Shown here: in pieces, positions 3,274-63,884 of the stretch
Numbering within the stretch: position 1 is the first letter of the stretch
Layout: every line of letters starts with the position of its first letter
Source: Bacillota bacterium
Lineage (GTDB): Bacteria > Bacillota > Desulfotomaculia > Desulfotomaculales > Desulfohalotomaculaceae
Direction: 5' to 3'
Length of the DNA: 64,000 bases
Assembly (NCBI GenBank): GCA_009711615.1
Contig: VENI01000009.1
Location: 310,001 to 374,000, forward strand
Notes under the pieces: model-generated
The model's input: only the letters and a program-made list of their open reading frames with translations
The model's database searches: none
What the model was told of the DNA's origin: nothing
Made by a program: the position numbers and the translations under genes

Positions 3274-3296
3274 TTTCTATCATTCCTTTCTAGGCT

Positions 3297-3779
3297 CTAT
3301 GAAGAACGAGTTGCTTTAATTATTTCATTAATTAATTGATCTTTATTGGCTCGGGTTATTTGTCTTCCCTTAATTGCTATTTCTTCAATATTGCGGGCAA
3401 TGTCCCGCAACTTTTCAACTGTAAAAGATTTAAGCTGTTCCTCAGTAAAATCTTTTTTAACGGTATCTTCACTTATAGATGAATCTTCCTCGCCGACTGC
3501 TGTTGGCGATACAGATAACAGTATATCTAAATCATCATGAGGTCTAGGTATAATATGGGTAGAAATAAGTTCACCTACACGTTTGGCTGCCGCTTGCCCG
3601 GCATCGATGGCAGCTTTCACAGCACCCACGTCACCCCTAACAACCACTGTTATAAGATCCGCACCGACTTTTACTTTTCCCAACATATACACGTCGGCTG
3701 ATTTAACCATAGCATCGGCTGCTTCTATAGCCGCTGTGAATCCTTTAGTTTCTATCATACCCAGTGCTTGCTGACCCAT
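3297..3779 (-). CDS. BMC-H shell protein with C-terminal Rho-N/SAP-like extension
   Basis: A 160-residue protein. The first 85 residues are one BMC-domain (hexamer-forming shell protein) starting [13 protein letters not shown]. Its pore-region loop is KVKVGADL instead of the GGGL of the two paralogues. After an acidic linker, residues about 112-160 ([20 protein letters not shown], then [14 protein letters not shown]) look like a small helical Rho-N/SAP-type domain. Such domains often bind nucleic acid, but here the fold is judged by eye only. It is the third of three consecutive BMC-H genes. The tail could sit inside or outside the shell and recruit a partner. Confidence 0.9.
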
Positions 3780-47582: not shown

Positions 47583-47666
47583 GTAATTAATCAAAGGGGG
47601 AAAAAATTCATGTTACCTACCAAAATTGATCACCTTAATCCGAATTAATTGGTGGAGTTGATAAAC

Positions 47667-48377
47667 TTGTGGATATCAAATATAAAACAGCTCATATTGA
47701 ATGCTCAAAATGGTGATGAATTTTCTAGGGAAAAGTTAATTAAGAAACACCGAAATTTCATAGCCAAAGTAAGTTCTGTAACCTGCGGTAGATACTTAAC
47801 CTGGGAAAACGATGAAGAATTAAGTATCGCTCTAATTGCTTTTAATGAATCTATTGATGCTTTTGATACTGAAGAAAGTATTAAATTTACTAGCTTTGCA
47901 CAAACAGTAATTAAACGTCGATTAATTGATTACTTTAGAAGTCAAGGTAAATATAGAAATGAAATACTTTCTTCCTCGTCCAAAGAAACCGATGAGCTAG
48001 AATCTGGTATTAATGCTCAATCAATTTCTAATTACGATGACAGTATCACTCAAGAAAACTTGGCTTTACTGATCGATGAATATAAAACGCAATTAGCAGA
48101 ATACAGTATCGATATTCATGACTTACCAAAAGTTTCACCTAAACATCGTGATACCAGGGAATCGTTAATGAAAACCGCACAGACACTGGTTAAAAACCAA
48201 GAAATGGTTAATTATTTACGAAAATATGGGCAACTACCAGTCAAACAACTGTGCCAGGAAACCGGCCTAAGTAGAAAAGTACTGGAAAGAGGTAGAAAAT
48301 ATATCATTTCCCTAGTCGTTATATTAATTGAACCCTCTCTTTCACCATTAAAGAAATTTTCTAATTTCCCCCGCTGA
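47667..48377 (+). CDS. sigI: RNA polymerase sigma factor SigI
   Basis: A 236-residue sigma-70-family factor of the SigI group: FIAKVSSVTCGRYLTWENDEELSIALIAFNESIDAFD (region 2), FAQTVIKRRLIDYFR, and a C-terminal helix-turn-helix segment KQLCQETGLSRKVLERGRKYIISL. I chose the TTG at 47667 because GGTGGAG is nine bases upstream. SigI controls wall, heat or polysaccharide-linked genes in Bacillus and clostridia and is held by RsgI, encoded next. Confidence 0.93.
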   Translation: MWISNIKQLILNAQNGDEFSREKLIKKHRNFIAKVSSVTCGRYLTWENDEELSIALIAFNESIDAFDTEESIKFTSFAQTVIKRRLIDYFRSQGKYRNEILSSSSKETDELESGINAQSISNYDDSITQENLALLIDEYKTQLAEYSIDIHDLPKVSPKHRDTRESLMKTAQTLVKNQEMVNYLRKYGQLPVKQLCQETGLSRKVLERGRKYIISLVVILIEPSLSPLKKFSNFPR

Positions 48378-48398
48378 TGATTATGAGGAGTGATTGTG

Positions 48399-49496
48399 AT
48401 GAAAAATAAAAAGATTGTCATTATGTCTATAAATGAGCGCGAAACAGTGGGCTATACCGACGATGGAGAATTTATTAGTTTACCAAAAAGGGAAAATCAT
48501 CAGGTAGGTCAAATATTAAATCTAAGTGCCCAGAAATCTAACAAACGCAACTTTTTTACCGGTTGGCAGGTAGCAGCAGTTGCTACTATAATGCTGGTGG
48601 CCTTTATGGGTGTTCTATATCCTCAGTTCACTCAGGAAGCAGAGGCATATCTCAGCCTAGGTCTTAACTCTGGCGGTGTTGAAATGTGGGTTGACAAAAA
48701 TGACAAAGTTATTGATATTAAATACCATGACGCAGCCACAACCTGGGGAGAACAAGATTTAAAAGGGGAAAATGTGTATAAAGCAGTTACCCTCTTAGCA
48801 TCTAAAGCTCAGCATTCAGGTCTTTTAGATGAACAGCAGGATAAGATGTTTATGTTAAATCATGCTAATTTAAATGAAAATGTGCCCCATCACCTTGATG
48901 AATCAAAATTAAAACAGTCCGCTTCTAAGGGTTTAAGCACAGATTATAACGGCCTTATGATTATGGGTAGACATGATATGAACTTTATAAATAAAGCAAA
49001 AGAGATGGGTGTAACAGCCAGCCAATATTATGTTATGGAGCAAAGTACTAACGCTGGCCATAATATAACGGCAGACCAAGTTAAGGGCCATCATATTAGT
49101 GATGTTTTGACTGAGAATGGTACAACACCAGAAGAAGTATTTCAAATGGAACCACATATGAATCAAAATAATTCTACTATGCCGCGTACTCATAATGATG
49201 ATAACAAGATTGAGGATAAAAGTGATGAACACTCAAACCCAAGCAACAATGGACATAATACCATGCCCAATAACCAAAATAATATGAATGATATGCAAGG
49301 GACTGAGAAACAACCAACAGATAAAACTGAGCAGACACATGACGGTCAATATATGGATAGTAATGATACACCGCACCAGGATTATAAAGGAAACATGGAT
49401 GTAGATAAAACTGATCAGACTCACAACAGCCAATATATGGGTAGTAATGATACAATGCACCAAGAATATAAAGACACAATGGGTAACTACAGATAG
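48399..49496 (+). CDS. rsgI: RsgI-like anti-sigma factor with Met/His-rich outer tail
   Basis: A 365-residue membrane anti-sigma factor. N-terminal RsgI domain inside (KIVIMSINERETVGYTDDGEFISLP), one helix (VAAVATIMLVAFMGVLYP, about 55-75), then an outside RsgI-type alpha/beta segment (EAYLSLGLNSGGVEMWVDKNDKVI). From about residue 240 the tail is rich in Asn, Met, His and Asp and contains two copies of a 28-residue unit. No carbohydrate-binding module as in Clostridium thermocellum RsgI is seen. ATG chosen for GAGGAG upstream. Confidence 0.88.
   Translation: MKNKKIVIMSINERETVGYTDDGEFISLPKRENHQVGQILNLSAQKSNKRNFFTGWQVAAVATIMLVAFMGVLYPQFTQEAEAYLSLGLNSGGVEMWVDKNDKVIDIKYHDAATTWGEQDLKGENVYKAVTLLASKAQHSGLLDEQQDKMFMLNHANLNENVPHHLDESKLKQSASKGLSTDYNGLMIMGRHDMNFINKAKEMGVTASQYYVMEQSTNAGHNITADQVKGHHISDVLTENGTTPEEVFQMEPHMNQNNSTMPRTHNDDNKIEDKSDEHSNPSNNGHNTMPNNQNNMNDMQGTEKQPTDKTEQTHDGQYMDSNDTPHQDYKGNMDVDKTDQTHNSQYMGSNDTMHQEYKDTMGNYR
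49320..49487 (+). repeat. Two tandem 84-bp repeats at the end of rsgI
   Basis: Units 49320-49403 and 49404-49487 encode DKTxQTHxxQYMxSNDTxHQ-type 28-residue repeats. Differences are scattered, so the duplication is not very recent. Confidence 0.85.
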
Positions 49497-49551: not shown

Positions 49552-49577
49552 TGGCGGCAATGATAATGCGTGCCTAG

Positions 49578-49790
49578 CGGTATGGTAAATCACAGCCGCA
49601 AGCCAAGCCTTTAAAATATAAAGATAAACAAGCTGTAGCCGGCTATGCCCAAGAAGCTATTAGCCAAACCCATACCTTAGGGATAATATCAGGTTACCCC
49701 GATGGCACCTTTAAACCTAAGGAAACTGCAACCCGAGCTCAAAGCCTGGTAATGATTAATAGAATGCTAAATCTGGCAGAACCTCAATAA
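49578..49790 (+). pseudogene. Remnant of an SLH-domain gene
   Basis: The plus-strand frame after an in-frame TAG reads KSQPQAKPLKYKDKQAVAGY, then an SLH end (GIISGYPDGTFKPKETATRAQ and IN.MLNLAEPQ) to the TAA at 49788-49790. There is no start codon with a ribosome site and no upstream coding. This is the last domain of a surface protein left after deletion. Confidence 0.75.
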
Positions 49791-49794
49791 AAAA

Positions 49795-49829
49795 GGCCCG
49801 CAGGCAAGTTGCTAATATGCCTGTGGGCC
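49795..49829. terminator. Bidirectional terminator at the end of the peptide operon
   Basis: GGCCCGCAGGCA and TGCCTGTGGGCC stem, between the SLH remnant and the last Nif11 gene; T-rich continuation on the minus strand. Confidence 0.8.
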
Positions 49830-49850
49830 TTACTATTGTAGGGTAGATAT

Positions 49851-50069
49851 TTAAAAAGGTGTAAAAGCACCACCGGAAACATTGTCTAAGTCATCTTCCG
49901 CTAACTCTTTACTGTTTTTTAACTCTTTAAGTTCTGCTATTGTTATTTCTATGCCTTCCGCTTTACATAACTCTACAGCTTCTTCAATGCTTTTAGCGTT
50001 AGACATCTTTTTTGCAAAGCCTTTATCCTTTTTTAATTTGTTAAGTAACAGTTCTATATGCTGTTCCAT
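49851..50069 (-). CDS. Nif11-type precursor peptide, tail AFTPF
   Basis: 72 residues from ATG 50069 (GAGGTGAG upstream). The leader (EQHIELLLNKLKKDKG... to EDDLDNVSGG) is of the Nif11/NHLP type and ends with a double-glycine cleavage site. The core after GG is only AFTPF, which is very short. Near-identical leader to the next gene at 50080. Exported and cut by the C39 ABC transporter in the same operon. No modifying enzyme recognised. Confidence 0.88.
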   Translation of the reverse strand: MEQHIELLLNKLKKDKGFAKKMSNAKSIEEAVELCKAEGIEITIAELKELKNSKELAEDDLDNVSGGAFTPF

Positions 50070-50079
50070 CTTACTCACC

Positions 50080-50331
50080 TCAATATGGGGCTGGTCTGCT
50101 ATAACCACTTACTTTTATGTTAGTAGTTGTACCACCAGAAATATTATCTAAATCATCTTCGGTTAACTCTTTACTGTTTTTAAACTCTTTCAGTTCTGCT
50201 GTAGTTATTTCTATGCCTTCCGCTTTGCATAACTCTACAGCTTCTTCAATGCTTTTAGCGTTAGACATCTTTTCCGCAAAGTCTTTATCTTTCTTTAATT
50301 TGCTGAGTAGGATTTCTATATGCTGTTCCAT
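50080..50331 (-). CDS. Nif11-type precursor peptide, 16-residue core
   Basis: 83 residues. Leader as in the neighbouring gene, ending LDNISGG. Core TTTNIKVSGYSRPAPY has no Cys and few residues usable for lanthionine. Ribosome site AGGTGAG. Confidence 0.9.
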   Translation of the reverse strand: MEQHIEILLSKLKKDKDFAEKMSNAKSIEEAVELCKAEGIEITTAELKEFKNSKELTEDDLDNISGGTTTNIKVSGYSRPAPY

Positions 50332-50345
50332 TGATACTCACCTCA

Positions 50346-50591
50346 CTAGGAAATGTCTATTAAATTAAAAGTAGGTGTATGGTTTAAAGAACCACCAGAG
50401 ACATTATCTAAGTCATCTTCGGTTAACTTTTTACTATTTTTTAACTCTTTAAGTTCTGCTATTGTTATTTCTATGCCTGCATCTTTAGCCAGCACTTGAA
50501 CTTCTTCCATGCTTTTGGCCTCTGCTACTTTTTGGGCCAGCTGTTCATTTTCTCTTAATTTATTTAGAAATAGTTCAATATTTTTTGTCAT
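50346..50591 (-). CDS. Nif11-type precursor peptide, 14-residue core
   Basis: 81 residues from ATG 50591. Leader MTKNIELFLNKLRENEQLAQ... with IAELKELKNSKKLTEDDLDNVSGG, core SLNHTPTFNLIDIS. The leader half nearest the cleavage site is nearly identical to the others and the first half diverges, so recombination or separate selection is likely. Confidence 0.88.
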   Translation of the reverse strand: MTKNIELFLNKLRENEQLAQKVAEAKSMEEVQVLAKDAGIEITIAELKELKNSKKLTEDDLDNVSGGSLNHTPTFNLIDIS

Positions 50592-50619
50592 CCGTAACAC
50601 ACCCCTATTTATCAACTAA

Positions 50620-50979
50620 TTAACAAATTGCATTTCCGTTGTTCATCAGCCATTTTTGGTTCTTTATTTGTTCCTTTGTATATCCACCGGACATAACCTT
50701 ACCTGCTGGCCCTGATCCGATCGCTACTGTTGTAAAGCCACCAGCAACGCCATCTAAATCATCATCACTTAATTCATCCTGATCTTGTTTTTCACAATAT
50801 TGCACCACTTGCTTCATTAGTTCCTGAACTTCCTGCATGTCTTCACTTGATAATTCAATGCCCTCATTTTTACTTAACTGCTGCACATCCTCTGCACTTT
50901 CTGCACTAAATACCTTGTCACCAAATGCCTTGTCCTCAGAAATTTTCTTGATAAAAACATCTACCTTTTCTTTAGCCAT
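50620..50979 (-). CDS. Larger Nif11-type precursor peptide with 38-residue core
   Basis: 119 residues. Leader ends DDDLDGVAGG; the core FTTVAIGSGPAGKVMSGGYT...NAIC is longer than the other three and ends in the only Cys. It is the gene nearest the transporter, so it may be the founder or a special product. Ribosome site AAGGAGG. Confidence 0.88.
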   Translation of the reverse strand: MAKEKVDVFIKKISEDKAFGDKVFSAESAEDVQQLSKNEGIELSSEDMQEVQELMKQVVQYCEKQDQDELSDDDLDGVAGGFTTVAIGSGPAGKVMSGGYTKEQIKNQKWLMNNGNAIC

Positions 50980-51007: not shown

Positions 51008-53713
51008 TTAAGCAAGTTGGCGTTTTGCCAGTTCTGCAAAAATGCCATCTTTCTGCATCAGTTCATCGTAGGTTCCTGTTTCCACTATCTTTCCTTTATC
51101 CATTACAATAATCCGGTCACAATTAATGATAGTACTTAACCGGTGGGCTATCACCACTCTTGTTGCTTTTAGCTTATCAAGGCTCTCACTGACAATGGTT
51201 TGGGTTGTATTATCCAGTGCGCTGGTGGCTTCATCAAAGTAAAGTATCTTAGGCTTGTTGACAATGGCTCTAGCTATTAAAAGCCGTTGGCGCTGGCCAC
51301 CGGAGAAAGTACCCCCACCTTCACTAATCACTGTGTGCATACCCATGGGCATTTGTTCAATATCTTTGTCCAACCCAGCCATCGTGGCCGCTTCCTCAGC
51401 ATCTTTCATGGTTAGGTGTGGGTTCGATCCAACTATGTTGGTAAAAATATCACCGGACATCAGTTGACCATTTTGCAAGACTACGCCCAATTGTTTTCTT
51501 ACCGAACGAATATCTATTTTATCAAGGTCTTTGCCATCATAGTAAACCTTTCCGGTTTCCGGGGTTTCAAAACCCAGCAGAATGCGGAACAGCGTAGATT
51601 TCCCGCTGCCGGATGTGCCCACCAAACCAACGTATTCACCTTTTTTAATCTGCAGCGATACATCATCGAGTACCAACGGGCTGTCTTTTTTATAGCGGAA
51701 AGAAAGGTGACTTACCTCTATATCCCCGGTTAATGTTCCGGGGTTGCTTTTAGCATCATCGTATTCCGGCAATTCGTCCAAAACAGTTTTAACCCGTTCA
51801 TATATCGGTATAATGGCATTAACTGATAGAATAGTATCTGACAGTGCCACCATACCCATGACAAAAACAGTGAAAGCTGCATTAAAGGCTATAAACTGAC
51901 CCGGTCCAAGATTAACATCGCTGTTTGCAACTAAGGAATAAAAAATAATCATGGATGTGATGATGGGAAATATGCTATTAAAAGTTACTAGTAAATTAGA
52001 AACGGTATAGGCTTTATAATCTAACTTTGCCTGCTGGCTAAATTCTTTAGACCATAAATAAAAGGCTCTTTTTTCGGCACCGGCAACTTTGAACTTGCTC
52101 ACACCTTGGATTAGCTGTAAAACCAAACCGGCAATTTTATTTTCCGCATCTAAAACCTGACGATCATAACGAATTTTTATGTAACCCAGGGTAGCTGTTA
52201 CAATTACTGCTGACAGCACCAAAAGAACTGCCAACACTGCCAACTGAACGTCGTAATAAAACAGCAGTGCCAGATTAAATACAGAAAATGTACTGGTGAT
52301 AATGGTGTTTACGGCAACCCCTGAAAGCATGGCCCGTATTTCACTGATCCCCATAGCCCTCATGGCCAGTTCACCTGAAGAATACTGCTTAAAGAATGAT
52401 GTCGGTAAGCTTAATAACCGATCCCACAACGCAGCTAAAATGCCTCCCTCAATTTTCCCTTCCAAGCGCAGCATGGCAAAGGATCTGGTTAATTCAAAAA
52501 GCATGGTGGCCAGTGCACTTGCTCCCAAAAAGAAAGCAATCTGCAGTAACTGTAACCTTTGTCCCTGGGGAATGATGCTATCGAAAACAATGCCCGTTGC
52601 CACCGGGGTAACCATCCCCAACAAGCCACCAAGAAGACCCATTAGTAATACCGAAACAAAGTCCCGTTTCCAGCAACTCTCTATACCAAAGGTTAATAAA
52701 TCTTTGATGGTGATAATCTTGTTAGGAAATGGTCGGTAAAAGGTGTAAGCCAGGGGTTTTATATTTTCAGCAATCTTCACGTCATCTATTATTTCACCTT
52801 TATTATCATAGTCATAAAGCATGTACTTGTTTGGCGAATGGGGAATTAATGCCACCGGGCGATTATCCTCTTCCATAAAGGCCAATAACGGCCCGTTATC
52901 ATTTCTCCACCATTCCCCTTTTAATGCCACCTGTCGATATCTAACCTGGGAGGCCCGGGCAATATCCCCCAAGGGATCTTTAGATTTAATACCTTCCCTT
53001 TGTCCGGGATAAGGTAATATATTTATTTTTATTGCTTGACCGACTAACATGCAAGCATTTAATAACGGATCATCACTTTCTGCATCAATAACTTTATGCT
53101 CCTGTTCACTTCCCGTAACTGTGGCTAATTTACTGACAGCCTTACTCATAAACTTGTTATCAACATTTGCTTTTAATTGAAACCTTTTTTTCTCTGCCTG
53201 CTCCTCGCTAGCAATATGTTTGATGGCCGCTTGTAAAAAAGCATTATTGTACTGCCCCAGCATGGAAAAGGAAGTGTTGGCATCATCTGTTTCTGCTGCC
53301 ACTGCCAATTCAGCGGCAGTGGCATCCATTGGCACAGAATCTGCCAGAGAATTAACCCAGTTATTAAATAGCTGAAGATAAGTACTTTGATCAGATAAGT
53401 CTTTAATTATTTCTGTAAAACGCTGCTTTTGTATTTGTCTTAGTTTTGTACCAGGAAGCCCTGATGCCAGTAATGCAAATTTTCTTTCCCGACCTTGGGG
53501 CGAAATGCCAAATATCAAATTTCCTTCGGTAACTTCAAATAAATAGTTTCTTTTTCCGGTTCGCTCCTCAGCTTTTACTTCCACAGCAAAAACAATCACT
53601 TTTCCCTGTTCAACCAACCAGATACTATCGGGATTGGTAAGCAGTAGCGGGTTGTTTCCGGCCACAGAAATTAATGTGCCTTCATTTTGTAAATCTTTCA
53701 GCATGCTCTGCAT
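51008..53713 (-). CDS. NHLP-type peptide export ABC transporter, permease/ATPase
   Basis: A 901-residue ABC exporter lacking a C39 domain. Residues 1-330 are a large N-terminal region typical of the second NHLM/NHLP ABC protein, then six helices, and an ATPase with Walker A GTSGSGKST, signature SGGQRQRLLIARAIV and Walker B ILYFDEATSALD. It works with the next gene's product to export peptides with Nif11/nitrile-hydratase-type leaders. Confidence 0.93.
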   Translation of the reverse strand: MQSMLKDLQNEGTLISVAGNNPLLLTNPDSIWLVEQGKVIVFAVEVKAEERTGKRNYLFEVTEGNLIFGISPQGRERKFALLASGLPGTKLRQIQKQRFTEIIKDLSDQSTYLQLFNNWVNSLADSVPMDATAAELAVAAETDDANTSFSMLGQYNNAFLQAAIKHIASEEQAEKKRFQLKANVDNKFMSKAVSKLATVTGSEQEHKVIDAESDDPLLNACMLVGQAIKINILPYPGQREGIKSKDPLGDIARASQVRYRQVALKGEWWRNDNGPLLAFMEEDNRPVALIPHSPNKYMLYDYDNKGEIIDDVKIAENIKPLAYTFYRPFPNKIITIKDLLTFGIESCWKRDFVSVLLMGLLGGLLGMVTPVATGIVFDSIIPQGQRLQLLQIAFFLGASALATMLFELTRSFAMLRLEGKIEGGILAALWDRLLSLPTSFFKQYSSGELAMRAMGISEIRAMLSGVAVNTIITSTFSVFNLALLFYYDVQLAVLAVLLVLSAVIVTATLGYIKIRYDRQVLDAENKIAGLVLQLIQGVSKFKVAGAEKRAFYLWSKEFSQQAKLDYKAYTVSNLLVTFNSIFPIITSMIIFYSLVANSDVNLGPGQFIAFNAAFTVFVMGMVALSDTILSVNAIIPIYERVKTVLDELPEYDDAKSNPGTLTGDIEVSHLSFRYKKDSPLVLDDVSLQIKKGEYVGLVGTSGSGKSTLFRILLGFETPETGKVYYDGKDLDKIDIRSVRKQLGVVLQNGQLMSGDIFTNIVGSNPHLTMKDAEEAATMAGLDKDIEQMPMGMHTVISEGGGTFSGGQRQRLLIARAIVNKPKILYFDEATSALDNTTQTIVSESLDKLKATRVVIAHRLSTIINCDRIIVMDKGKIVETGTYDELMQKDGIFAELAKRQLA

Positions 53714-53721
53714 TACACCCC

Positions 53722-55869
53722 CTAGCTGGCCTCAATTAAGTTTGCATAATGGCCATCAATATTCTTTAACTGCTCGTGAGTGCCCCGTTGAACAATTTTA
53801 CCTTTATCTAAAACAATTATTTCGTCACAATCTCGAATGGTACTTAAACGATGGGCCACAATAATACAGGTGCAGCCACGGCGACGAATATTTTCATCAA
53901 CTTTTTTCTCAGTCATTGGGTCCAGTGCACTGGTTGCTTCATCCAACACCAGTATTGATGGGTTATTCACCAAAGCCCTGGCAATCTCCAGCCTTTGCCG
54001 CTGGCCACCGCTAAAGTTACTGCCCCCCTCATCAAGCAGATGTTCATAACCACCAACTCGTGAGGTAATGTCATCATGAATACTGGCGTCTTTCGCTGCC
54101 CTAACAATATCGGTTTCAGGGATAGTGTCATCCCAAAGGGTAATATTCTCTTTTATGGTGCCTTCAAACATGTTGATATCTTGATCAACCATAGATAGGG
54201 ATTGATTTATAACTGGTCTCGGAGCATGCTGAGATTTAAATCCATCAAATAGAATCTCCCCTGACCAGGGCTTATAAATACCTGCCACCAGTTTGGCTAC
54301 AGTGGATTTCCCACTGCCGGAACCGCCAACCAGTGCCACCCTGGAACCGGGCTGTAACTTAAGGTTAAAGTCCTCAATTAAAGGAGGTTCCAACGGACTG
54401 TAGCCGAAGGATAAATTCTCTATCTCAATTAGCCCTGACAATTTTTCGTAAGATTGTTCAGTGTCAACCTCTTCACTGGTACACTCATCTATGGGGTATC
54501 TTAAAACGTCATCCAAACGGTTCATATCGCCTTCCATTTCCTGGAGTCTACTGCCCAGGTTAACCAACTCAATGACCGGTTGCATGAAGCTTAACATTAA
54601 ACTTTGAAAAGCAACCACCATACCGATAGTCATCTGTCCATTTAACACATAGTAGCCGCCCAATGCCAAGATAGCAGTGTTGGTTAGGGTTGTCAGTAAT
54701 GTTGGCACACCCAACAGTGGTATGGTTGTAGAATCTAACTGTTGTTTGGCGTTAAGCACTTTGGCTTGGTAACCTGACCATTTTGAAAAAAAGTCTGACT
54801 CTGATCCAGTGGCCTTCAGGGTCTCAATTATCTGCAGGCCAGACATGGAGGTTCCCATCAGTTTACCGTAATCTTGTAGATATTTACGGTTTAAATCCAC
54901 TCGCTTTTGATAAATAAATTTTAAATATAGTATATTCAATGCCGCTGCAGCGACACCCACCAGCGATAATACCACGTTATATTGCAGCATTAATGCCAGG
55001 TAAAAAACAATCATGATTAAGTTAAGTGCAGTGGTGGCAAGTTCCCCGGATAATAACTCCGCTACCTTTTGGTTACTTTGCATGCGGGAACTGATATCAC
55101 CAATGGATCGTTGGTTAAAAAATTCCACTGGCAGTCTCAAGACATGCCACAGGAATTGTCCAGAAGTACTTAACGCAATTCTGAATTTAAGTCTGAGCAG
55201 GTAGTATTCCTGAATCCAGGTTAACAGCCCTCGCAGAACTGCGGTGATCCCCATTCCCAATATTAAGGGTATTAGCCAGTTCTGCTTATTAGCAAGCAAC
55301 ACATCATCCACAAATATTTTGGAAAACAGTGGGATTACTAAACCCGGCATTACCAGTGCCAGCCCAATTAGAATTATGTAAATCAAAGCAATTTTTGAGC
55401 CCTGAATACGATTTTTTAAAGCCTTGGCCATGCTGGGCTTACTGCCGCTCTTTTCAAAATCCGGCCCTGGATTAAAAGTTAATACAATACCGGTAAAGGA
55501 TTGATCAAATTCTTCTTCATCAACTACCCTGGGGCCGCTTCCCGGATCGTTTAAATACACTTTACCGTTTTTAAAGCCCTCTAAAACCAAGAAATGATTA
55601 AAGTTCCAGTGAATAATCATCGGTCCATCCATCTCTTTTAATGATTCAGGCTCTTTGCGATATCCCTTGGCTTCTAAACCATACCTTCTTGCTGCTTTTA
55701 AAACATTGCTGGCTTTACTGCCATCCCTGGAAACGCCACAAGCAATACGCAGCTCTTCCAGAGGTATATATTTACCGTAAAAGCCCAAAACCATGGCCAG
55801 TGACGCTGCACCACATTCCAAGGCTTCCATTTGTAATATAGTAGGGACCTTAACTCGTTTTTCTGGCAT
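53722..55869 (-). CDS. NHLP-type peptide export ABC transporter with C39 peptidase
   Basis: A 715-residue exporter with an N-terminal C39 cysteine peptidase (catalytic Cys in LECGAASLAMVLGFYG, His in HWNFNHFLVLEGF, Asp in YLNDPGSG), six helices, and an ATPase with GGSGSGKST, SGGQRQRLEIARALV and LVLDEATSALD. It cuts leaders after Gly-Gly and exports the core, matching the GG sites of the four Nif11 peptides. Confidence 0.95.
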   Translation of the reverse strand: MPEKRVKVPTILQMEALECGAASLAMVLGFYGKYIPLEELRIACGVSRDGSKASNVLKAARRYGLEAKGYRKEPESLKEMDGPMIIHWNFNHFLVLEGFKNGKVYLNDPGSGPRVVDEEEFDQSFTGIVLTFNPGPDFEKSGSKPSMAKALKNRIQGSKIALIYIILIGLALVMPGLVIPLFSKIFVDDVLLANKQNWLIPLILGMGITAVLRGLLTWIQEYYLLRLKFRIALSTSGQFLWHVLRLPVEFFNQRSIGDISSRMQSNQKVAELLSGELATTALNLIMIVFYLALMLQYNVVLSLVGVAAAALNILYLKFIYQKRVDLNRKYLQDYGKLMGTSMSGLQIIETLKATGSESDFFSKWSGYQAKVLNAKQQLDSTTIPLLGVPTLLTTLTNTAILALGGYYVLNGQMTIGMVVAFQSLMLSFMQPVIELVNLGSRLQEMEGDMNRLDDVLRYPIDECTSEEVDTEQSYEKLSGLIEIENLSFGYSPLEPPLIEDFNLKLQPGSRVALVGGSGSGKSTVAKLVAGIYKPWSGEILFDGFKSQHAPRPVINQSLSMVDQDINMFEGTIKENITLWDDTIPETDIVRAAKDASIHDDITSRVGGYEHLLDEGGSNFSGGQRQRLEIARALVNNPSILVLDEATSALDPMTEKKVDENIRRRGCTCIIVAHRLSTIRDCDEIIVLDKGKIVQRGTHEQLKNIDGHYANLIEAS

Positions 55870-55883
55870 TATCCCACACTCCG

Positions 55884-57134
55884 TTAACTAAATATAGGAA
55901 AAACCAAGCTAATTGGTTTCTGTTCGTTAATGGTTACCGACCCGGAACAAAGCGTACCGCTTGTAATTTTAATTGGCGGCCCCTGTGGTGTGGACCATTT
56001 GTATCCACTAACCGTATCTTCATCAACAACCAGATCAATACGCACTTCCAATGCAGTACTTTGCCCAGCCAGTTTATTAACTAACTCCTCATTGCCCAGT
56101 ATCCGCATCATGCCCTGAAAAGTGGCGGGATAATCGCTTACAGATACCACCCTTCCCAAAAGATAGCCATACTCTTCTTTCTTAACAATGGTGGGGGAAA
56201 CTTGCGCTTCCATACCAGGCAGTATCTTTTTTCCCTCTTCTGCCGGGATATACATTACTAACTCTAAACCCTTAACCTCGTCTCCCGTTTCCTCCAAACT
56301 GATAATTGAGCTTCCTGGTTGAATAATGTCTCCTTCGTTGATCTTAACCTCAAGAACTTGTCCTTCCTCATCTGACACTATGTTAGATTTATATTCCAAT
56401 TCATGCTGTAAATCATTTATCTTTTCTTCTAAAGTGGCAATTTTAGCTGTTATTGTGGAAAGTAATCTGTCCACCGTAGCTTCAGATGCTTTCACTTCCA
56501 GTTCAAGTAATTCATAATTATTTTTTGCCTTTGATAAATCTTCTCCGCTGTTAACATGTTTATTTAAATAATCCTGTTGGCTGGCAGCATTTATTTTATC
56601 TTGTAACAGTTTAATTTTTGCACTGATAAGTTCATATTTAATATTGTTATATTCTTCAGCCAATGTTGAGTTAGTCTGTGAGCTTTCTATTCTTGAGTAG
56701 AACTGATTTAGTTGGATTAATTCTGATTGAATACCCTCTCCACCGCCGCCAGTTGTTATTTCTTGAGTTGCCTTTAACTGCTGAAGCTGGTTTTTAAAAT
56801 CATTGATCTGCTCCACCAGTTGATGCTGTTCTACCCTGGCTACTATGTCACCCTTTTGTACATAGTCACCGGCCTTAACCCTAATATCTGTAATCTGGCC
56901 ACCACTAACATGAGCCAGATTATATATACCTCCACTTTTAAGTAAAATTCCCTGGCCGTAAACTTTAGTGGGTATACTGCCAAAGAAACCCCAGGTTAAT
57001 GCTGTAACTAAGAGTGCCCCGATGGCTAAAAATGCCAGCCATGCTTTGGGGGTAGTTACCGTCACCATCTGATCAAGCTGCTCCGGTGATGAAAGCCTTT
57101 CTAAGGATACTTTACGAAACAACCCCTGTTTCAT
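55884..57134 (-). CDS. NHLP-type secretion protein (HlyD/adaptor family)
   Basis: A 416-residue membrane-fusion-type protein: an N-terminal helix (about 35-55), a biotinyl-lipoyl-like half (IRVKAGDYVQKGDIVARVEQHQL), a long coiled-coil hairpin, and the second half (VLEVKINEGDIIQPGSSII). It links the two ABC exporters to the outside. Ribosome site GGGAGG. Confidence 0.92.
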   Translation of the reverse strand: MKQGLFRKVSLERLSSPEQLDQMVTVTTPKAWLAFLAIGALLVTALTWGFFGSIPTKVYGQGILLKSGGIYNLAHVSGGQITDIRVKAGDYVQKGDIVARVEQHQLVEQINDFKNQLQQLKATQEITTGGGGEGIQSELIQLNQFYSRIESSQTNSTLAEEYNNIKYELISAKIKLLQDKINAASQQDYLNKHVNSGEDLSKAKNNYELLELEVKASEATVDRLLSTITAKIATLEEKINDLQHELEYKSNIVSDEEGQVLEVKINEGDIIQPGSSIISLEETGDEVKGLELVMYIPAEEGKKILPGMEAQVSPTIVKKEEYGYLLGRVVSVSDYPATFQGMMRILGNEELVNKLAGQSTALEVRIDLVVDEDTVSGYKWSTPQGPPIKITSGTLCSGSVTINEQKPISLVFPIFS

Positions 57135-57150
57135 TACAAGATTCCTCCCA

Positions 57151-58311
57151 CTATTTTTCTAGGTAAACAAATTCACCGTTCCTAACCATTTTTTTATAAA
57201 CAGTTTTGCCTTCAACTGCGCCATTTTCATTAAAACTAATATCATCTATGATTCCCGGCCAGTCTTTTAATGCCCGCAGTTGCTGGGCAATATTTTCAGG
57301 GGTTGGTGTTTCTGTATTATTCATGGCATCAGCCAGCAGTTTAATGGAATCATAGCCTTGAATCGCCCATACATCAGGCTTCTGACCATATTCCTCCATA
57401 AACTTTTGTTTGAACTGCTCTAGTTCCGGCCTCTCACTATCGGGGTTATAGCTAGTAGCTAATACCGCCCCTTCAGCTGCAGCACCCAGAGTTTCTATAA
57501 AGTCAAAGTCTAAACCGTCTCCACCCATTATCGGGATATCTGGATTTATTTTTTTAAGTTTGGTAATAAAATCTGTTGCGGCAGGTAAAGAGTCAGCAAC
57601 AAATACCGCCTCATAATCTAAGGCCTTCCATTTTTCTATAGTTCTCATAAAATCATTATCGTCTTTAAATTCACTTGCCCTGCCTACTATGGAAATGTTG
57701 TTACGTCTGGCTACATCTTCAAAGGAATTTGCCAATCCTCTACCATAGGAAGTATCGGCATAATAGATAGCAATATGCCTGTACCCCTGTTGTTTTGCAA
57801 AAAGAGCCATCTGTTTACCTATTTCATCATCGGTGGGGATATTTTGAAATACAAATTGATAACCCCTTTGGGTTAGATTGGTATTAGAGACAACAGGCGA
57901 TAGCATAACCAAACCAGATTTTTCATAGATGGTAGAAGCAGGGATGGTAATATGTGAATGCCAGTGTCCAACCACTGCCACAACTTTTGGGTTATTAACA
58001 AAAGATTGTGCTATAGTAGTACCAGTCATAAATGAACCTTCGTCATCTTTTACGATAACACCCAGTTCTCTACCACCTATACCACCTTGGGCATTAACCT
58101 CTTTCACAGCCAAGTTAACACCATCAATAAATCCGGTACCATTTTTCATTAGGTCACCGGGTCCGGGTATACCAATTAATATTTGGTTACTTTTATCCGA
58201 CACCCAAGCTTGTCTTTGGGCAGATACGTCCCCCTCACCAACACAAGCAGTTAAAGGAAACAATATAAAAATAATTGTTACTAGTAATTTGAATACTTTA
58301 TTGCCTTTCAT
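57151..58311 (-). CDS. Extracellular ligand-binding lipoprotein (branched-chain-amino-acid type)
   Basis: A 386-residue Leu/Ile/Val-binding-protein-family lipoprotein (lipobox LTAC after a short signal). IGIPGPGDLMKNGTGFIDGVNLAVKEVNAQGGIGGRELGVIVKDDEG is typical, as are AVVGHWHSHITIPASTIYEKSGLVMLSPVVSN and the fold's second half. No ABC permease is encoded nearby, so it may act as a receptor rather than a transporter part. Ligand unknown. Confidence 0.9.
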   Translation of the reverse strand: MKGNKVFKLLVTIIFILFPLTACVGEGDVSAQRQAWVSDKSNQILIGIPGPGDLMKNGTGFIDGVNLAVKEVNAQGGIGGRELGVIVKDDEGSFMTGTTIAQSFVNNPKVVAVVGHWHSHITIPASTIYEKSGLVMLSPVVSNTNLTQRGYQFVFQNIPTDDEIGKQMALFAKQQGYRHIAIYYADTSYGRGLANSFEDVARRNNISIVGRASEFKDDNDFMRTIEKWKALDYEAVFVADSLPAATDFITKLKKINPDIPIMGGDGLDFDFIETLGAAAEGAVLATSYNPDSERPELEQFKQKFMEEYGQKPDVWAIQGYDSIKLLADAMNNTETPTPENIAQQLRALKDWPGIIDDISFNENGAVEGKTVYKKMVRNGEFVYLEK

Positions 58312-58326
58312 TTGCTCCCCCACCTT

Positions 58327-59034
58327 CTACCGTTTCTTGCCATAGTGGATATAAAATCCTTCTTCACTTTTTGCTACTTTTAAGCCTAAATAACCTTGCT
58401 TTAGTAACTCTAACTGCTTGTCCAAGTCAGTGTTTAATACCGGGACAGTATCGCTATCATCCACTGAAATGAGGTTTTGATTATCCTGAAAAAATATATA
58501 TCTCCAATAATTGTTGTATTTAAATTTGAGGTCAACAATCACGGTGTTTGCACCAAGGGCTGCCTTAACACTGGGGTAATTATATGGGGAAACTGTTGCC
58601 AACAGATATCGCCATTCTATATCATGTTTAGCACTAGCTAGAAGATGGTTTATCATTCGTTCTTCCAAGTGATTCCCCCTAAAGTCGGGATGAATAAATG
58701 CCGATTCCATGTGGGCAACCTTCATCAATTGACCTTTTGATAAGCCAATATCCAGGCCTAAATTATCCTCCCGTGCACCTGGGTATAACACCGAAAAAAA
58801 CGCCACCAATTTTTCCGCAACCAAAACGCCAACTGCCAAGCCACTGGTTTCTAATATTTCCACCAACTCTTCATCGGTTAAGTAAACGCATAACGTTTTG
58901 TCTTTCAATCCTTCTATTACAGTACTCTGTAATTCCTTGATTTGATCTAGATGGTTCTTATTCAGTAAAATCATCTCAAAAGGATGGTTTGTTAAATCTG
59001 TTTGATTAGTAATTACTCCTTTTTCAATTAACAT
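58327..59034 (-). CDS. GNAT-like N-acetyltransferase
   Basis: A 235-residue protein with a GNAT core: AVGVLVAEKLVAFFSVLYPG, then MESAFIHPDFRGNHLEERMINHLL (acetyl-CoA binding loop, with R/G-x-x-x replaced by RGNHLEER), and YLLATVSPYNYPSVKAALGANT. Start overlaps the MFS stop (TAATG). In the peptide operon it could acylate a small product or peptide, or a cell-wall amine. No substrate evidence. Confidence 0.72.
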   Translation of the reverse strand: MLIEKGVITNQTDLTNHPFEMILLNKNHLDQIKELQSTVIEGLKDKTLCVYLTDEELVEILETSGLAVGVLVAEKLVAFFSVLYPGAREDNLGLDIGLSKGQLMKVAHMESAFIHPDFRGNHLEERMINHLLASAKHDIEWRYLLATVSPYNYPSVKAALGANTVIVDLKFKYNNYWRYIFFQDNQNLISVDDSDTVPVLNTDLDKQLELLKQGYLGLKVAKSEEGFYIHYGKKR

Positions 59035-61460
59035 TATACCCCCACACCTCTTTGTTGTTGACGATTAGCTTCGTTATTAGTTCGGTTAACAAACCAGAAT
59101 ATCAACAGGGCGACTAAAGAAATAACTCCAATCATTCCAATCCCCTTAATACCTAGCACCATCACCGAACCAAACAAAACCGGCCCCAGCATCTGACCCA
59201 GTTTACGTACATTATCGTAGTACCCCAAGGATTTACCAACACCAAAAGCTCCTGTGGCTTGAAGTTTTATAAAGTAGTTGTTTTGGGCCATTAATCCAAA
59301 GCTTTCAGAAACACCTAACATAATTACCACTAGGAATGCAGTTAACATCGATCCATATAACGCAAACAACAAAAAGCTCGCTACAATAATTAGTCCTGAC
59401 ACAATTACTGCCGTCTCCGATTTGAAATATTTACCTGCATATTTACTAAGCAGTGGGCCTAAATAAACAATACACAAACCGTTAAACATAAAGGCCCGGC
59501 CGACATTGGAAACAGATGCTCCCATGTCTGAGGCGAATATTGGAAAATAGTAATCTAGAAACATACTACTGATTGTCAATGGTATCACAATGGTCAGGAA
59601 AAAAACTAATACCTTACCATCAAATAAAAACTCTAGAACACTTATTTTAGGTAACGCTGACAATTCACCTTGTTTGTTCTCTTTTGAAACTGCACCTTTA
59701 ATAAATACTAAGTTGAAAATTGCCGCTAATATTATAAATGCCAGTATTACATAAAAGACTTGTGAAAAACCAATGCGATCTGCCAGCATGGCCCCCACAA
59801 CAACACCAGCTATAACTCCGGCATATAAACCAGAGAACATTGCAGTAAACCCTTTAGTTTGTTCCTCTTCCGAAGGAAAAGAGTTTACATAGGAACGAAT
59901 GGATATTAATGCAAAACCATAACCGGCACCGGTAATACCTCTGGCAATAATAAAGGCAATTGCATCCGATGCTAGTCCAGATAAAAGCGTACCCAATGCT
60001 GCCACCGCTAGCCCGACAAAGAAGACCATCCTCCAACCTCTTCTGTCAATCACATATCCGGCCAGCACTGCAGCAATGGCGCCCATAAACATTTCCATAG
60101 AAATGGGGAGCCCAAGAATAACATTTTCAGACAGTCCCAGTATCGGTCGGTAGAGTTCCTGCATTAACAGCGGTATAAAAGAACCAGACATAAAAAAACC
60201 AAAAAAGAGGGTGAAAGTCAGCGGTCTGATCATTTCGGCTTCAGATGTGGTTGATTTATTGTTAACTTCCTCTTTCTCGTGATCAAGCTGTCTTCTAAGA
60301 AATATCAAACTAAAATACGTGGATTCCACCATAATAATTAAAGACATCACCATTACTGTTAGAACATCATAAACAATCACTTTTAACTTACTATCAAGAT
60401 AGCTATTTGACAAGTTAACAGTTAGCTTACTTTTTACTCCCTGAGCATCCTGAATTAAGGATGTACTGTAACTTAGATTACTTTCACTTATTTCGTTTTC
60501 TCCAATATCATCACCAGCAGAAGTAAATACCTTACCATCCTTATTGGTCAATGATATGGTTTCAACTTCAGGTACCTCAGTAATTACTTCCTTTAAGTAA
60601 TCATCAAGATTTAATTTCCCATAGGGAACGCCCTCACTAACCACATAGTTAATATCTTTTTCAATCATTTTTGATGTAATGGCCACGTTCTCTTTTGCAA
60701 TATCTATATATGCCTCTTTAAACATATTGTAGTTAATATAACCGTAAATTGCTTGCACAGTACCCAGTATGATAATAAAGCCACCCATAAGAAGCTTTGT
60801 GTTAATTTCCTTGTTATTTTTCACAATTGAGAACTTAGAAATAAAGATAGTTAGTAGGAATAGTGCAATAAGGGCTAAAACTACTAAGTAGTACCCTAGC
60901 TGCGTCATATACTTGTTAGTTTGTTTGTTTATAACCTCTTTATCAAATACTAAATCAACACTGCCGATCCAGCCCGCCCTATTATTTTGTGTATCCATTA
61001 TTGGAATAAATAGATGGTATTCACCTTGATGCAGTACTGAAGCATACCCAGTTTCACCGTTTGGCAAAGACAGTTGATTTCTCATTTCCTGAGAAATTTT
61101 CTTGCGGATTTCCGAAGAAATTTGTTTATCCTCTACTGACCCACTGTGATCATAAATTATTTTTCCATTGGGTAGAACCACTTGTACCTCTCCAAGGTCA
61201 GAAGATTCATTAAACTTTTCTGCAAGTAAATCTTCCATGCCGTAGAAAACATCTAAAGGTTTTCCATACTTGACAGCATATTCAATTTTCCGCACCGTTT
61301 CCTTACCGGAGACTGCGTAACTGGATATTAGAGAATTTGAGTAGTTTTTGTGAAATGAAGCAATATTGATACCACCGGTAAAACCTAACACAATAACAAT
61401 TAGTAATATTGCTGAAAGCAGAAAAAGTATATTTACTCTCTTTGATTTCACATTAATCAT
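59034..61460 (-). CDS. MFS transporter fused to two extracellular sensor-type segments
   Basis: An 808-residue protein. Helix at about 10-30, an extracellular segment (about 31-190), two helices (about 190-245), a second extracellular segment (about 246-365) of Cache-like type (SMIEKDINYVVSEG..., VETISLTNKDGKVFTSAGDD), a helix, and then a 12-helix MFS half (about 415-805, with motif-A-like GYVIDRRGWR near residue 470). The first 400 residues look like a chemoreceptor input without its signalling half. A sensor-coupled export or import switch is a reasonable guess. No family name recognised. Confidence 0.82.
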   Translation of the reverse strand: MINVKSKRVNILFLLSAILLIVIVLGFTGGINIASFHKNYSNSLISSYAVSGKETVRKIEYAVKYGKPLDVFYGMEDLLAEKFNESSDLGEVQVVLPNGKIIYDHSGSVEDKQISSEIRKKISQEMRNQLSLPNGETGYASVLHQGEYHLFIPIMDTQNNRAGWIGSVDLVFDKEVINKQTNKYMTQLGYYLVVLALIALFLLTIFISKFSIVKNNKEINTKLLMGGFIIILGTVQAIYGYINYNMFKEAYIDIAKENVAITSKMIEKDINYVVSEGVPYGKLNLDDYLKEVITEVPEVETISLTNKDGKVFTSAGDDIGENEISESNLSYSTSLIQDAQGVKSKLTVNLSNSYLDSKLKVIVYDVLTVMVMSLIIMVESTYFSLIFLRRQLDHEKEEVNNKSTTSEAEMIRPLTFTLFFGFFMSGSFIPLLMQELYRPILGLSENVILGLPISMEMFMGAIAAVLAGYVIDRRGWRMVFFVGLAVAALGTLLSGLASDAIAFIIARGITGAGYGFALISIRSYVNSFPSEEEQTKGFTAMFSGLYAGVIAGVVVGAMLADRIGFSQVFYVILAFIILAAIFNLVFIKGAVSKENKQGELSALPKISVLEFLFDGKVLVFFLTIVIPLTISSMFLDYYFPIFASDMGASVSNVGRAFMFNGLCIVYLGPLLSKYAGKYFKSETAVIVSGLIIVASFLLFALYGSMLTAFLVVIMLGVSESFGLMAQNNYFIKLQATGAFGVGKSLGYYDNVRKLGQMLGPVLFGSVMVLGIKGIGMIGVISLVALLIFWFVNRTNNEANRQQQRGVGV

Positions 61461-62632
61461 TGTGCATCACCTATACTCTCCCCAGCGATGTTCTGAAAAA
61501 TTTCATCTGCCACCAGCAATACTTCAAATGGTATCTGGAAATTTATTTTATCGGCGGTTTCTAAATTGAATGATATATATGGTGTACTTTTAAATACTTG
61601 TGGAAGTTCCGCTGGAGAACTTCCCTGTAATATCTTCATCATATTTGTAGCACCAAAACGACCTATATTAGTAAAATCATTTAAGGAAGTATTCATTAAT
61701 GCACCATACTTCACTTCGTCCCCACCCATTTGTGAGAGAGTAGGTACATTATTTTCATAAAAAGGAGCAAATAACTGCGGTAGTCTTTCCGGTTCCAGGG
61801 AGGCTACTGTAACATACATGGCATCCACTTCTTCAGCTAGTTTCTGATACGCCTCTGCCACTTCAGCATAATACCTCCCCTTGTCTGCCTCATTTTTAGG
61901 TTCTTTAACATTATAACTAACAATCTCAAACTCTTTTTCCAACGCAACAGCCTTTACATCGTCCACTGCAGAGTAGCTATAAGCAGCAGGGGAGTTTTCA
62001 TAAACCATACCCAGCTTTTTATATTTAAACATATCGTAGAACACTTCAATCTGTCTTTTAAAGCGTTCCGGATCCATGTGGGCCCAGATGTGGTTAATAC
62101 CAGAAGTTTGTTCTGACTTTACTATACCAGAATCCACAGCATTACTGGCGGAAAAAACCATGGAGGGGACGTCATGGTCTGCTTTTGATACCACTGTTCC
62201 AGCATATGTACCCATTATAATCAACAAATCCATATCTCGTTTTTGTTTAAGTCGGTTAATTAATTGCTCCTTTGTTTTCACCCCAGAGCTCAAATCATAA
62301 TGGGCATCCTCAACAAACTCGATGTAAGGTCCCATGTCGTGAGTGGCCAGCCAACTCCACATTGCAGTGGTATCCTCTTGTCCCTTTTGGTAAGGTATAT
62401 CTGAAATGCCATTAATCCATCCCTGCTCTTCCAACCCCAAAAGCAAGTGATAAAAGGTAGATGCATAGTTTACAAAGGGTTCTCCTTCAACGTATGCTAT
62501 CCGCCATTTTTGTCCGTTGTTGATATAATTATCTACAGATTCACTGGCATTAGACTGTACAGGTGTAACAATAACCATCATAAAGCAAATTGATAGGATT
62601 AAGCTGAGTATGCTTTTAGCTTTACCTTTCAT
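61457..62632 (-). CDS. ABC-type substrate-binding protein of the ABC_sub_bind family
   Basis: A 391-residue exported protein (signal peptide to about residue 30) with the fold of the ABC_sub_bind (PF04392-type) family: MDLLIIMGTYAGTVVSK, VPSMVFSASNAVDSGIV, LGMVYENSPAAYSY and DAMYVTVAS. Members bind tryptophan or small aromatic compounds in some cases. No permease is nearby. Last 4 bp overlap the MFS start. Confidence 0.8.
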   Translation of the reverse strand: MKGKAKSILSLILSICFMMVIVTPVQSNASESVDNYINNGQKWRIAYVEGEPFVNYASTFYHLLLGLEEQGWINGISDIPYQKGQEDTTAMWSWLATHDMGPYIEFVEDAHYDLSSGVKTKEQLINRLKQKRDMDLLIIMGTYAGTVVSKADHDVPSMVFSASNAVDSGIVKSEQTSGINHIWAHMDPERFKRQIEVFYDMFKYKKLGMVYENSPAAYSYSAVDDVKAVALEKEFEIVSYNVKEPKNEADKGRYYAEVAEAYQKLAEEVDAMYVTVASLEPERLPQLFAPFYENNVPTLSQMGGDEVKYGALMNTSLNDFTNIGRFGATNMMKILQGSSPAELPQVFKSTPYISFNLETADKINFQIPFEVLLVADEIFQNIAGESIGDAQ

Positions 62633-63775
62633 TTAGCCTATCCCCTCCTGCAAGATACTCTCAGGCAACGAATCCCTTAAGAAACAAACACTTTCACAAT
62701 TTGTTACTGATATCCCAGCACGTTTTGCCACCTCTGACACCGTTATTTTTTCCTCCCCTTGCTCTCCAAAGATAACTACCTCATCGCCAATACTTGCATC
62801 GGGTATATTGGTAATATCCACTAATATGTGCCCCATAAAAGGGCTGCAAATGAGTGGTGTCCTTTGGTTACGAATCAACACTTCACCGCTTTTCATATGC
62901 ACTAAAAACAATGCGTTTGAATAACCAATAGATACGGTGGCAATGCGACCGGATTTTGACACTAAAACCTCGTTGCCATAACCAAGATGCTGGCCATTAC
63001 TTAATTCTTTTATATCAGTTATCCGCGCCTTTAACTGCATTATGGATTTTAAACCTATTTCAGGTTGGTTTTTAAATGAGGGTAACCCATACAGGCATGT
63101 ACCAATTCGCACTGTATTGAAATGTGCTTGGGGATATTTTAATGTTGCCGGACTGCTGGCAGCATGAATCATCGGGATATGAATACCTGAATTATTTAGG
63201 TTACTGATGAGGGAGTTGAACTTTTCAAGGTCCTTGTTAACAAGTTCTTCGTCATCTCCGTAGGTTGATGCTAAATGGGTAAACAAGCCTTCTATTTTAA
63301 GCCATTGATATTGATCAGTTATCAATTTTATAGTCCGATAAGCATGCTGATAAGCAACACCAACGGTTCCTAAGCCGATGTCCACCCGGATATGAAACTT
63401 AATATTTCTTTGTTTTTCTTTACCAATGGCATTAAAACGCTCCGCCAAAGCCTGTGTAGCAATCATTGGCGTCAGGTTATAACCTACCACTTGTTCCGCT
63501 TCTTCCAAAGGTATAGAGCCAAGGATGATTATTGGTGACTTAACTCCACCTAATCTTAATTTAATTCCTTCCTCAGCCGTGGCCACTGCTAACTTGGCAG
63601 CGCCATAACGAGCCATATAATTTGCAATGGTCACAGCTCCGTGGCCATAGGCATCTGCTTTTACCACGGCAATTATTTCTTTGCATGAACCAATGATGTC
63701 TTTTACAATCCGAATATTATTTTTTAGATATGGCAAATTAATTTCAACCCATGGTTTATGAACACTGTTTGTCAT
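62633..63775 (-). CDS. Alanine-racemase-fold PLP enzyme with altered active site
   Basis: A 380-residue protein of the alanine racemase family (PLP Lys in VVKADAYGHG, Tyr in VSIGYSNAL, RIGTCLYG motif). I chose the ATG at 63775 (CGGGAG upstream); an in-frame earlier start adds 34 unsupported residues. Several residues normally invariant in Alr differ: Arg of GMGRxG is Thr (GLGTVG), Asn of HxxNSA is Ser (HAASSP), GYADG is GYSNA, C-M-D-Q is PFMGH and NYE is NCE. It may racemise another amino acid or have another reaction. First clear gene of the peptide operon. Confidence 0.85.
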   Translation of the reverse strand: MTNSVHKPWVEINLPYLKNNIRIVKDIIGSCKEIIAVVKADAYGHGAVTIANYMARYGAAKLAVATAEEGIKLRLGGVKSPIIILGSIPLEEAEQVVGYNLTPMIATQALAERFNAIGKEKQRNIKFHIRVDIGLGTVGVAYQHAYRTIKLITDQYQWLKIEGLFTHLASTYGDDEELVNKDLEKFNSLISNLNNSGIHIPMIHAASSPATLKYPQAHFNTVRIGTCLYGLPSFKNQPEIGLKSIMQLKARITDIKELSNGQHLGYGNEVLVSKSGRIATVSIGYSNALFLVHMKSGEVLIRNQRTPLICSPFMGHILVDITNIPDASIGDEVVIFGEQGEEKITVSEVAKRAGISVTNCESVCFLRDSLPESILQEGIG

Positions 63776-63884
63776 TTTTATGCTCCCGAAATTATGAATT
63801 TTATATATAATTTCTTTATTTATACTTTGAGTTCCTTTAAATTTGTAAAATATTATGTTTATTTGTAGAATTTTCATATAATAG

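Follow-up and report, generated by a model that had tools for sequence, protein, structure and literature searches.

What becomes of Nif11 precursors whose operon encodes an exporter and no recognisable modifying enzyme? Nif11 leaders are regarded as handles on which modifying enzymes dock, and N11P precursors (TIGR03798) with a three-part exporter (TIGR03794/03796/03797) were described by Haft, Basu and Mitchell in 2010 (PMC2887384). The question arises from a 64,000-nucleotide stretch of the genome of a syntrophic bacterium (G000:C2:310001-374000; hereafter the window). A sequence-only reading had recognised four such precursors there and no linked maturase, and had proposed that the products are plain linear peptides or are modified by an unlinked or a new enzyme, such as the racemase-fold or GNAT protein of the operon.

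Four Nif11 precursors with shared leaders and unrelated cores

The four precursor genes lie consecutively on the minus strand and encode proteins of 72, 83, 81 and 119 residues (precursors a to d, Table 1). All four scored well above the curated cut-off of TIGR03798 (44.5-52.4 bits versus 32.3) and likewise passed that of PF07862, confirming their assignment as N11P precursors. Starts at ATG 50069 (precursor a) and ATG 50591 (precursor c) were preferred over the longest open reading frames, and for each of the two last genes a GAGGTGAG-type ribosome site overlaps the stop of the preceding gene.

Each leader ends in SGG or AGG and is followed by a variable core; the cores AFTPF, TTTNIKVSGYSRPAPY, SLNHTPTFNLIDIS and the 38-residue Cys-ended peptide were recovered exactly as first read. 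Leaders a and b are 90% identical at the DNA level, with dN 0.05 and dS 0.44 (dN/dS about 0.12); dN and dS were 0.21 and 0.82 for leaders a and c, and 0.24 and 0.96 for b and c. Since dN lies well under dS in these pairwise comparisons, leaders a to c are selected coding sequence, under purifying selection after duplication. Leader d is more distant, being about 32% identical to the other three. DNA homology among the precursors stops at the GGT GGT codons, in agreement with the earlier description of conserved leaders and unrelated tails. Shared leaders together with a homology break at Gly-Gly are far beyond chance and typical of duplicated leaders with diversified cores.

The cores themselves end in F, Y, S and C, with no terminal Trp, and together contain one Cys and one Arg. 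Lys is present in cores b and d only, leaving cores a and c with neither Lys nor Arg. The five-residue core AFTPF may be a relic.

Table 1. Features of the precursor operon, in window positions.
Feature	Position	Strand	Basis and remarks
Intrinsic terminator closing the operon	49793..49832	-	65-nt stretch, -25 kcal/mol, z -4.45, then TTTTTT
Nif11 precursor a, 72 aa	49851..50069	-	TIGR03798 E 6.7e-12; leader 67 aa ending SGG, core AFTPF
Nif11 precursor b, 83 aa	50080..50331	-	TIGR03798 E 8.8e-14; core TTTNIKVSGYSRPAPY
Nif11 precursor c, 81 aa	50346..50591	-	TIGR03798 E 4.5e-14; core SLNHTPTFNLIDIS
Nif11 precursor d, 119 aa	50620..50979	-	TIGR03798 E 1.4e-11; leader 81 aa (longer), core 38 aa, Cys last
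NHLM exporter ABC2, no peptidase	51008..53713	-	TIGR03797 992 bits, cut-off 709
NHLM exporter ABC1 with C39 peptidase (predicted leader cleavage, export)	53722..55869	-	TIGR03796 1152 bits versus 853
NHLM HlyD-type secretion protein	55884..57134	-	TIGR03794 411 bits versus 156
SBP2, LivJ-like extracellular binding lipoprotein	57151..58323	-	PF13458 E 8e-51; nearest solved chain 4mlc, E 8.6e-79
Divergent single-domain GNAT	58327..59034	-	predicted model, VIA-align Z about 12 to GNATs
MFS transporter, 400-residue N-terminal extension	59034..61460	-	PF07690 at residues 415-745
SBP1, ABC_sub_bind/TrpX-like extracellular binding protein	61457..62632	-	PF04392 E 1.1e-16
Second, divergent alanine racemase, first operon gene	62633..63877	-	TIGR00492 285 bits versus 168

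The precursors close a tight operon with its own exporter

The precursor genes end a 12-gene unit that begins with the racemase (63877) and finishes with precursor a (49851), in the order alanine racemase, SBP1, MFS, GNAT, SBP2, NHLM HlyD, C39-ABC, ABC2 and precursors d, c, b and a. All 12 genes are open and the intergenic gaps range from -4 to 28 bp; we infer that they are co-transcribed as one transcript. The terminator was found by folding, its loop exceeding the length allowed in the terminator scan. Close to it, at 49575-49790 (+), inspection by eye revealed a gene remnant, an S-layer homology domain fragment with no start codon (..YAQEAISQTHTLGIISGYPDGTFKPKETATRAQSLVMINRMLN). Convergent with the precursors lies a SigI/RsgI-like sigma/anti-sigma pair (47649-49496, +; by eye), the second protein of which has a Met/Asn/His-rich C-terminus with repeats.

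HlyD, C39-ABC and ABC2 are adjacent and each lies far above its equivalog cut-off, as expected of an NHLM peptide exporter. The window ABC1 aligns full-length to PCAT1 (4ry2) and retains Cys, His and Asp at the C39 active site, and the exporter is intact. LahT150, a C39 domain from a Nif11 cluster, can process many leaders and tolerates variation in both leader and core (PMC6363468), and is reported to take modified as well as unmodified cores (PMC10885120). On this basis, it is mechanistically plausible for Nif11 cores to be exported unmodified.

A Gly-Gly leader combined with a dedicated C39 exporter is also the arrangement of unmodified class II bacteriocins and double-glycine pheromones, for which short linear products are expected. 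The window system differs from these in its long Nif11 leader and in that the operon encodes neither a recognised immunity protein nor a histidine kinase receptor. No small membrane protein that might be a cognate immunity candidate was seen adjoining the precursors; the binding lipoprotein could be a putative immunity protein.

Taken together, the family matches, leader dN/dS values, Gly-Gly break, tight gaps, terminator and exporter slightly favour a reading in which the C39 domain would cut the four co-transcribed precursors after Gly-Gly and the operon's own NHLM exporter would release the cores as short linear peptides, unmodified or nearly so, with no dedicated maturase involved. Cleavage, export and the unmodified state are here predictions from gene content. 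The released peptides might serve as signals or competition peptides, a weaker suggestion, and the LivJ-like lipoprotein accompanying the exporter is a possible receptor or scavenger.

No maturase is linked to the precursors

Family scans between 49.8 and 64 kb revealed no LanM, YcaO or radical SAM maturase, as the sequence-only reading had maintained. That reading would have been overturned by a maturase just outside the window in the same operon; none was found over 18 kb upstream, where only an HD/GGDEF protein, methionine-synthesis genes, transporters and regulators were identified by eye. The only radical SAM match of the window, at about 9.7 kb, is of the glycyl-radical-activase type.

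The search was extended to the whole genome (92% complete, 19 contigs), as the earlier reading had suggested, and returned no LanM, one distant YcaO and RiPP-type radical SAM proteins only elsewhere. With PF05147, a model that detects LanM in relatives, neither a LanC-like cyclase nor LanM was found in the cluster or the genome, so that the hallmarks of class I and II lanthipeptides are missing. The single YcaO lies on another contig inside an NHLP cluster and thus provides no linked YcaO of the kind required for thiazole or oxazole formation. No radical SAM/SPASM or B12 radical SAM maturase lies in or beside the operon, and the six SPASM proteins of the genome are each placed away from it. 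Among the best 30 of 41 genomic radical SAM matches, which were read individually, three have RiPP context: a paralogous Nif11 cluster, the NHLP/YcaO cluster (C1:328-338 kb) and SCIFF. Three candidates were rejected. A radical SAM pair on C12 sits among tetrapyrrole synthesis genes and was assigned by eye to haem synthesis; a C7 SPASM protein is a tungsten-cofactor oxidoreductase maturase; and the SPASM protein at C1:631 kb is the SCIFF maturase, adjoining its own SCIFF peptide.

RiPP enzymes encoded elsewhere in the genome

The paralogous Nif11 cluster lies on the same contig (C2:38-54 kb; L008:4352-19602 = G000:C2:38.3-53.6 kb). It has SBP1 (46% identical to that of the window), GNAT (34%), SBP2 (42%), HlyD (43%), ABC1 (60%), ABC2 (51%), MFS (34%) and a Nif11 precursor in common with the window operon, but differs in possessing a radical SAM/SPASM protein, a peptide arginase, a DUF7005 protein (HEATH motif), an ECF sigma factor and a 419-aa protein, and in having no racemase. 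Radical SAM and peptide arginase genes are located at C2:39.5-42.4 kb, the arginase being a relative that scores 281 bits against NF052474, under the cut-off of 350. The single precursor has the core GINININFDTSRW, with Trp last. Paralog-type clusters occur also in other Syntrophomonas-type genomes and in further genomes of the phylum, and Trp is the last residue of 10 of the 11 paralog-type cores, that of L143 instead ending VVGKR. The radical SAM/arginase cluster appears to represent an ornithine-containing RiPP family that has not been described.

Several features of the paralogous cluster were recorded in passing. Tandem, nearly identical genes for a 515-aa membrane transporter lie beside it (L008:69-1616 and 2175-3722). 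A small protein encoded after the ECF sigma gene (L008:11340-11630) combines the motif DDELDxVAGG, which resembles a GG leader, with a conserved tail like VNLN..DEKGKK; homologues were found at L028:17037, L030:14866, L033:1173, L034:16752, L036:10188, L019:2026, L060:7605 and L142:961. It may be a former anti-sigma factor that has become a substrate for export. In radical SAM clusters, the protein of 419-458 aa (L008:8421-9680; L019:8514-9890) carries near its C-terminus an NHLP-leader-like stretch (29% over 52 aa, E 2e-7) and may thus be an enzyme fused to a leader-like domain.

The NHLP/YcaO cluster (L042:8456-18112) encodes a YcaO fusion, a ThcOx-like oxidase, a GNAT, a class III aminotransferase, a radical SAM protein and three NHLP precursors. 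The leaders of these three are nearly identical and their cores bear Cys, from which the window cores differ with their one Cys in total.

These clusters make it conceivable that the window precursors are modified in trans, above all by the paralogous radical SAM/SPASM protein and arginase, or else by the YcaO cluster. Both clusters look intact, the paralogous one has seven more genes in common with the window operon, and a stand-alone LanM serving distant Nif11 precursors has been described in cyanobacteria (PMC3140520). Against this, the window leaders are 28-42% identical to paralog-type leaders, which are 54-66% identical to one another across genera. Furthermore, no window core has the C-terminal Trp, a rule that the L143 precursor shows not to be absolute, and Arg and Cys each occur once in all four cores. 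Given the leader divergence and the lack of a Trp end, the paralogous enzymes probably do not act on the window precursors; the same is probable of the YcaO cluster. As to the earlier proposal of an unlinked enzyme, the genome does hold RiPP maturases outside the window (radical SAM/arginase, YcaO cluster and SCIFF), but the comparison of leaders and cores speaks against their action here, and we regard modification in trans as rather unlikely.

The absence of a linked maturase is unusual

We surveyed the surroundings of Nif11 precursors across the class and of GNAT relatives across the phylum. In 15 of 15 other loci combining an NHLM exporter part with a Nif11/NHLP-type precursor, a recognisable maturase was found nearby (the paralog, L019, G021, G023, G111, G112, G050, G367, G411, G101, G097, G034, G017, G033 and G085), a sample that is not random, nine loci having been reached via the GNAT and six via the Nif11 leader, and in which several radical SAM calls consist of a CxxxCxxC motif and the right protein size only. 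Two loci considered maturase-free (G021 and G023) were rejected as such, with two YcaO proteins, a B12 radical SAM relative and a LanM lying 1-10 kb away. The exporters closest to that of the window (ABC1 70-73% identical) belong to this maturase-bearing set, and the ABC1 tree agrees. The window operon, having no linked maturase, is therefore unusual.

Two further loci (G019 and G020) have a Nif11 precursor and, over the surrounding 10 kb, no recognised maturase or exporter. Nif11 precursors with conserved Pro-rich cores (IIHNAAPRYIALSPPESPYPVR and TIHNNAPRYIALSPPEPPYPVR) were observed at L133:10187-10459 and L134:10118-10354; within 10 kb of these precursors, from two genomes, exporter and maturase were both unrecognised.

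The survey counts against linear products, as does the fact that a Nif11 leader of such length is usually an enzyme-docking device. Because all 15 surveyed loci have a maturase nearby and some of them hold the exporters closest to that of the window, an enzyme that was lost or that acts from elsewhere is a fair alternative. Loss in particular would mean a decaying cluster, in which the ancestral maturases have gone from the window copy, leaving precursors that yield no proper product. The constant company of maturases around related exporters, the position of the window exporter among them in the ABC1 tree and the five-residue core a are all consistent with decay. However, the 12 genes are open and tightly spaced, the leaders have been under purifying selection since duplication and the interval between exporter and precursors contains no maturase remnants, making decay very unlikely.

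The arrangement itself is not of a new kind, since an exporter and Nif11 precursors with no linked modifier have already been described in cyanobacteria. The N11P/NHLM systems of the original description (PMC2887384) resemble the window in precursor family, three-part exporter, several paralogous precursors and hypervariable cores, and differ in that the drawn examples have a cyclodehydratase or LanM, which the window operon does not. The cyanobacterial group V bacteriocin clusters combine C39-ABC, peptidase-less ABC, HlyD and N11P/NHLP precursors with no LanM inside the group, some being apparently served by a stand-alone LanM (PMC3140520). Unlike these, the window operon is from a Firmicute and adds two binding proteins, an MFS transporter, a GNAT and a racemase.

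GNAT and racemase belong to a separable module

In 12 clusters, the gene immediately upstream of HlyD is that for SBP2 (window, paralog, G021, G023, G111, G112, G050, G139, G367, G097, G034 and G033), a count that leaves out G017 and G085, which could not be judged. This adjacency is absent in G101, and G411 is arranged differently. The remaining genes have a different distribution: SBP1-GNAT-MFS-racemase occurs in G201 and SBP1-GNAT-MFS in G405, both single-contig genomes with no TIGR03798 match and no NHLM ABC1 above cut-off. In trees of SBP1 and MFS, the window clusters with the racemase-bearing modules of G201 and G411 (100/100, to be read with caution given the long branches). An early pattern scan of contigs with the GNAT had returned only two Syntrophomonas-type relatives, the patterns being poor.

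The GNAT has no Pfam match above cut-off, and its profile gave weak matches to PDB sequences (best E 0.004); the fold is therefore a predicted one, from a model (pLDDT 76, three sequences) that matches GNAT folds over residues 13-188 with Z about 12. In its CoA loop, another residue takes the place of the central Gly (RGN[H/N/D]L or RGHKL). The racemase, termed racemase-fold in the earlier reading, is indeed of racemase type but goes beyond a mere fold: it is a full alanine-racemase-type enzyme that retains the PLP-lysine and catalytic-tyrosine regions. Another alanine racemase copy is encoded at C3:264505. Members of the alanine racemase family have free amino acids as their substrates.

GNATs acylating the side chains of Lys or Orn are known beside Nif11/NHLP precursors and exporters, in some cases with no lanthionine synthetase (PMC13060382, PMC9505594), and the linked GNAT might accordingly be a maturase that acylates Lys side chains, as in the selidamides. 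The predicted GNAT fold, relatives in 12 other RiPP-type loci and the combination of GNAT gene, Nif11/NHLP-type precursors and exporter seen in the phaeornamide, kamptornamide and nostolysamide pathways all fit such a role. However, cores a and c offer no Lys or Arg, so that two of four lack an acceptor side chain, and no LanM, arginase or hydroxylase is linked. Acylation at the N-terminus would have to follow removal of the leader, a step that normally takes place during export. In addition, the window GNAT has a single domain where NpuN is reported as a tandem GNAT (compared by description), its CoA loop is altered and the family is found also in genomes without Nif11 precursors. We consider a GNAT maturase unlikely.

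A dedicated maturase role for the GNAT and racemase is unlikely, given that their module is also present where the genome has no Nif11 precursor and that Lys and Arg are missing from two of the four cores. The proposal that either is a new maturase is thereby weakened, and both are better read as part of a separate, perhaps amino-acid-related, module. The binding-protein/MFS/GNAT/racemase part of the operon may handle an amino-acid-type ligand.

Discussion

Release of plain linear cores, one of the options originally proposed, emerges as the best supported, the state of the products being predicted from the genes. The locus comparison splits the operon into two modules, a binding lipoprotein with the exporter and a binding protein with GNAT, MFS and racemase, which the reading of a single locus would merge; GNAT and racemase are no longer the top candidates for new maturases.

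A bolder and distinctly unlikely version holds the whole operon to be a self-contained signalling unit, in which the NHLM exporter would release four unmodified peptides and the LivJ-like lipoprotein beside HlyD, conserved in 12 clusters, would receive or retrieve them in partnership with the MFS transporter and its N-terminal extension. Were it true, Nif11 leaders would serve export alone. An enzyme-free operon with an intact exporter offers a clean test of whether the leader by itself can serve the export of plain peptides.
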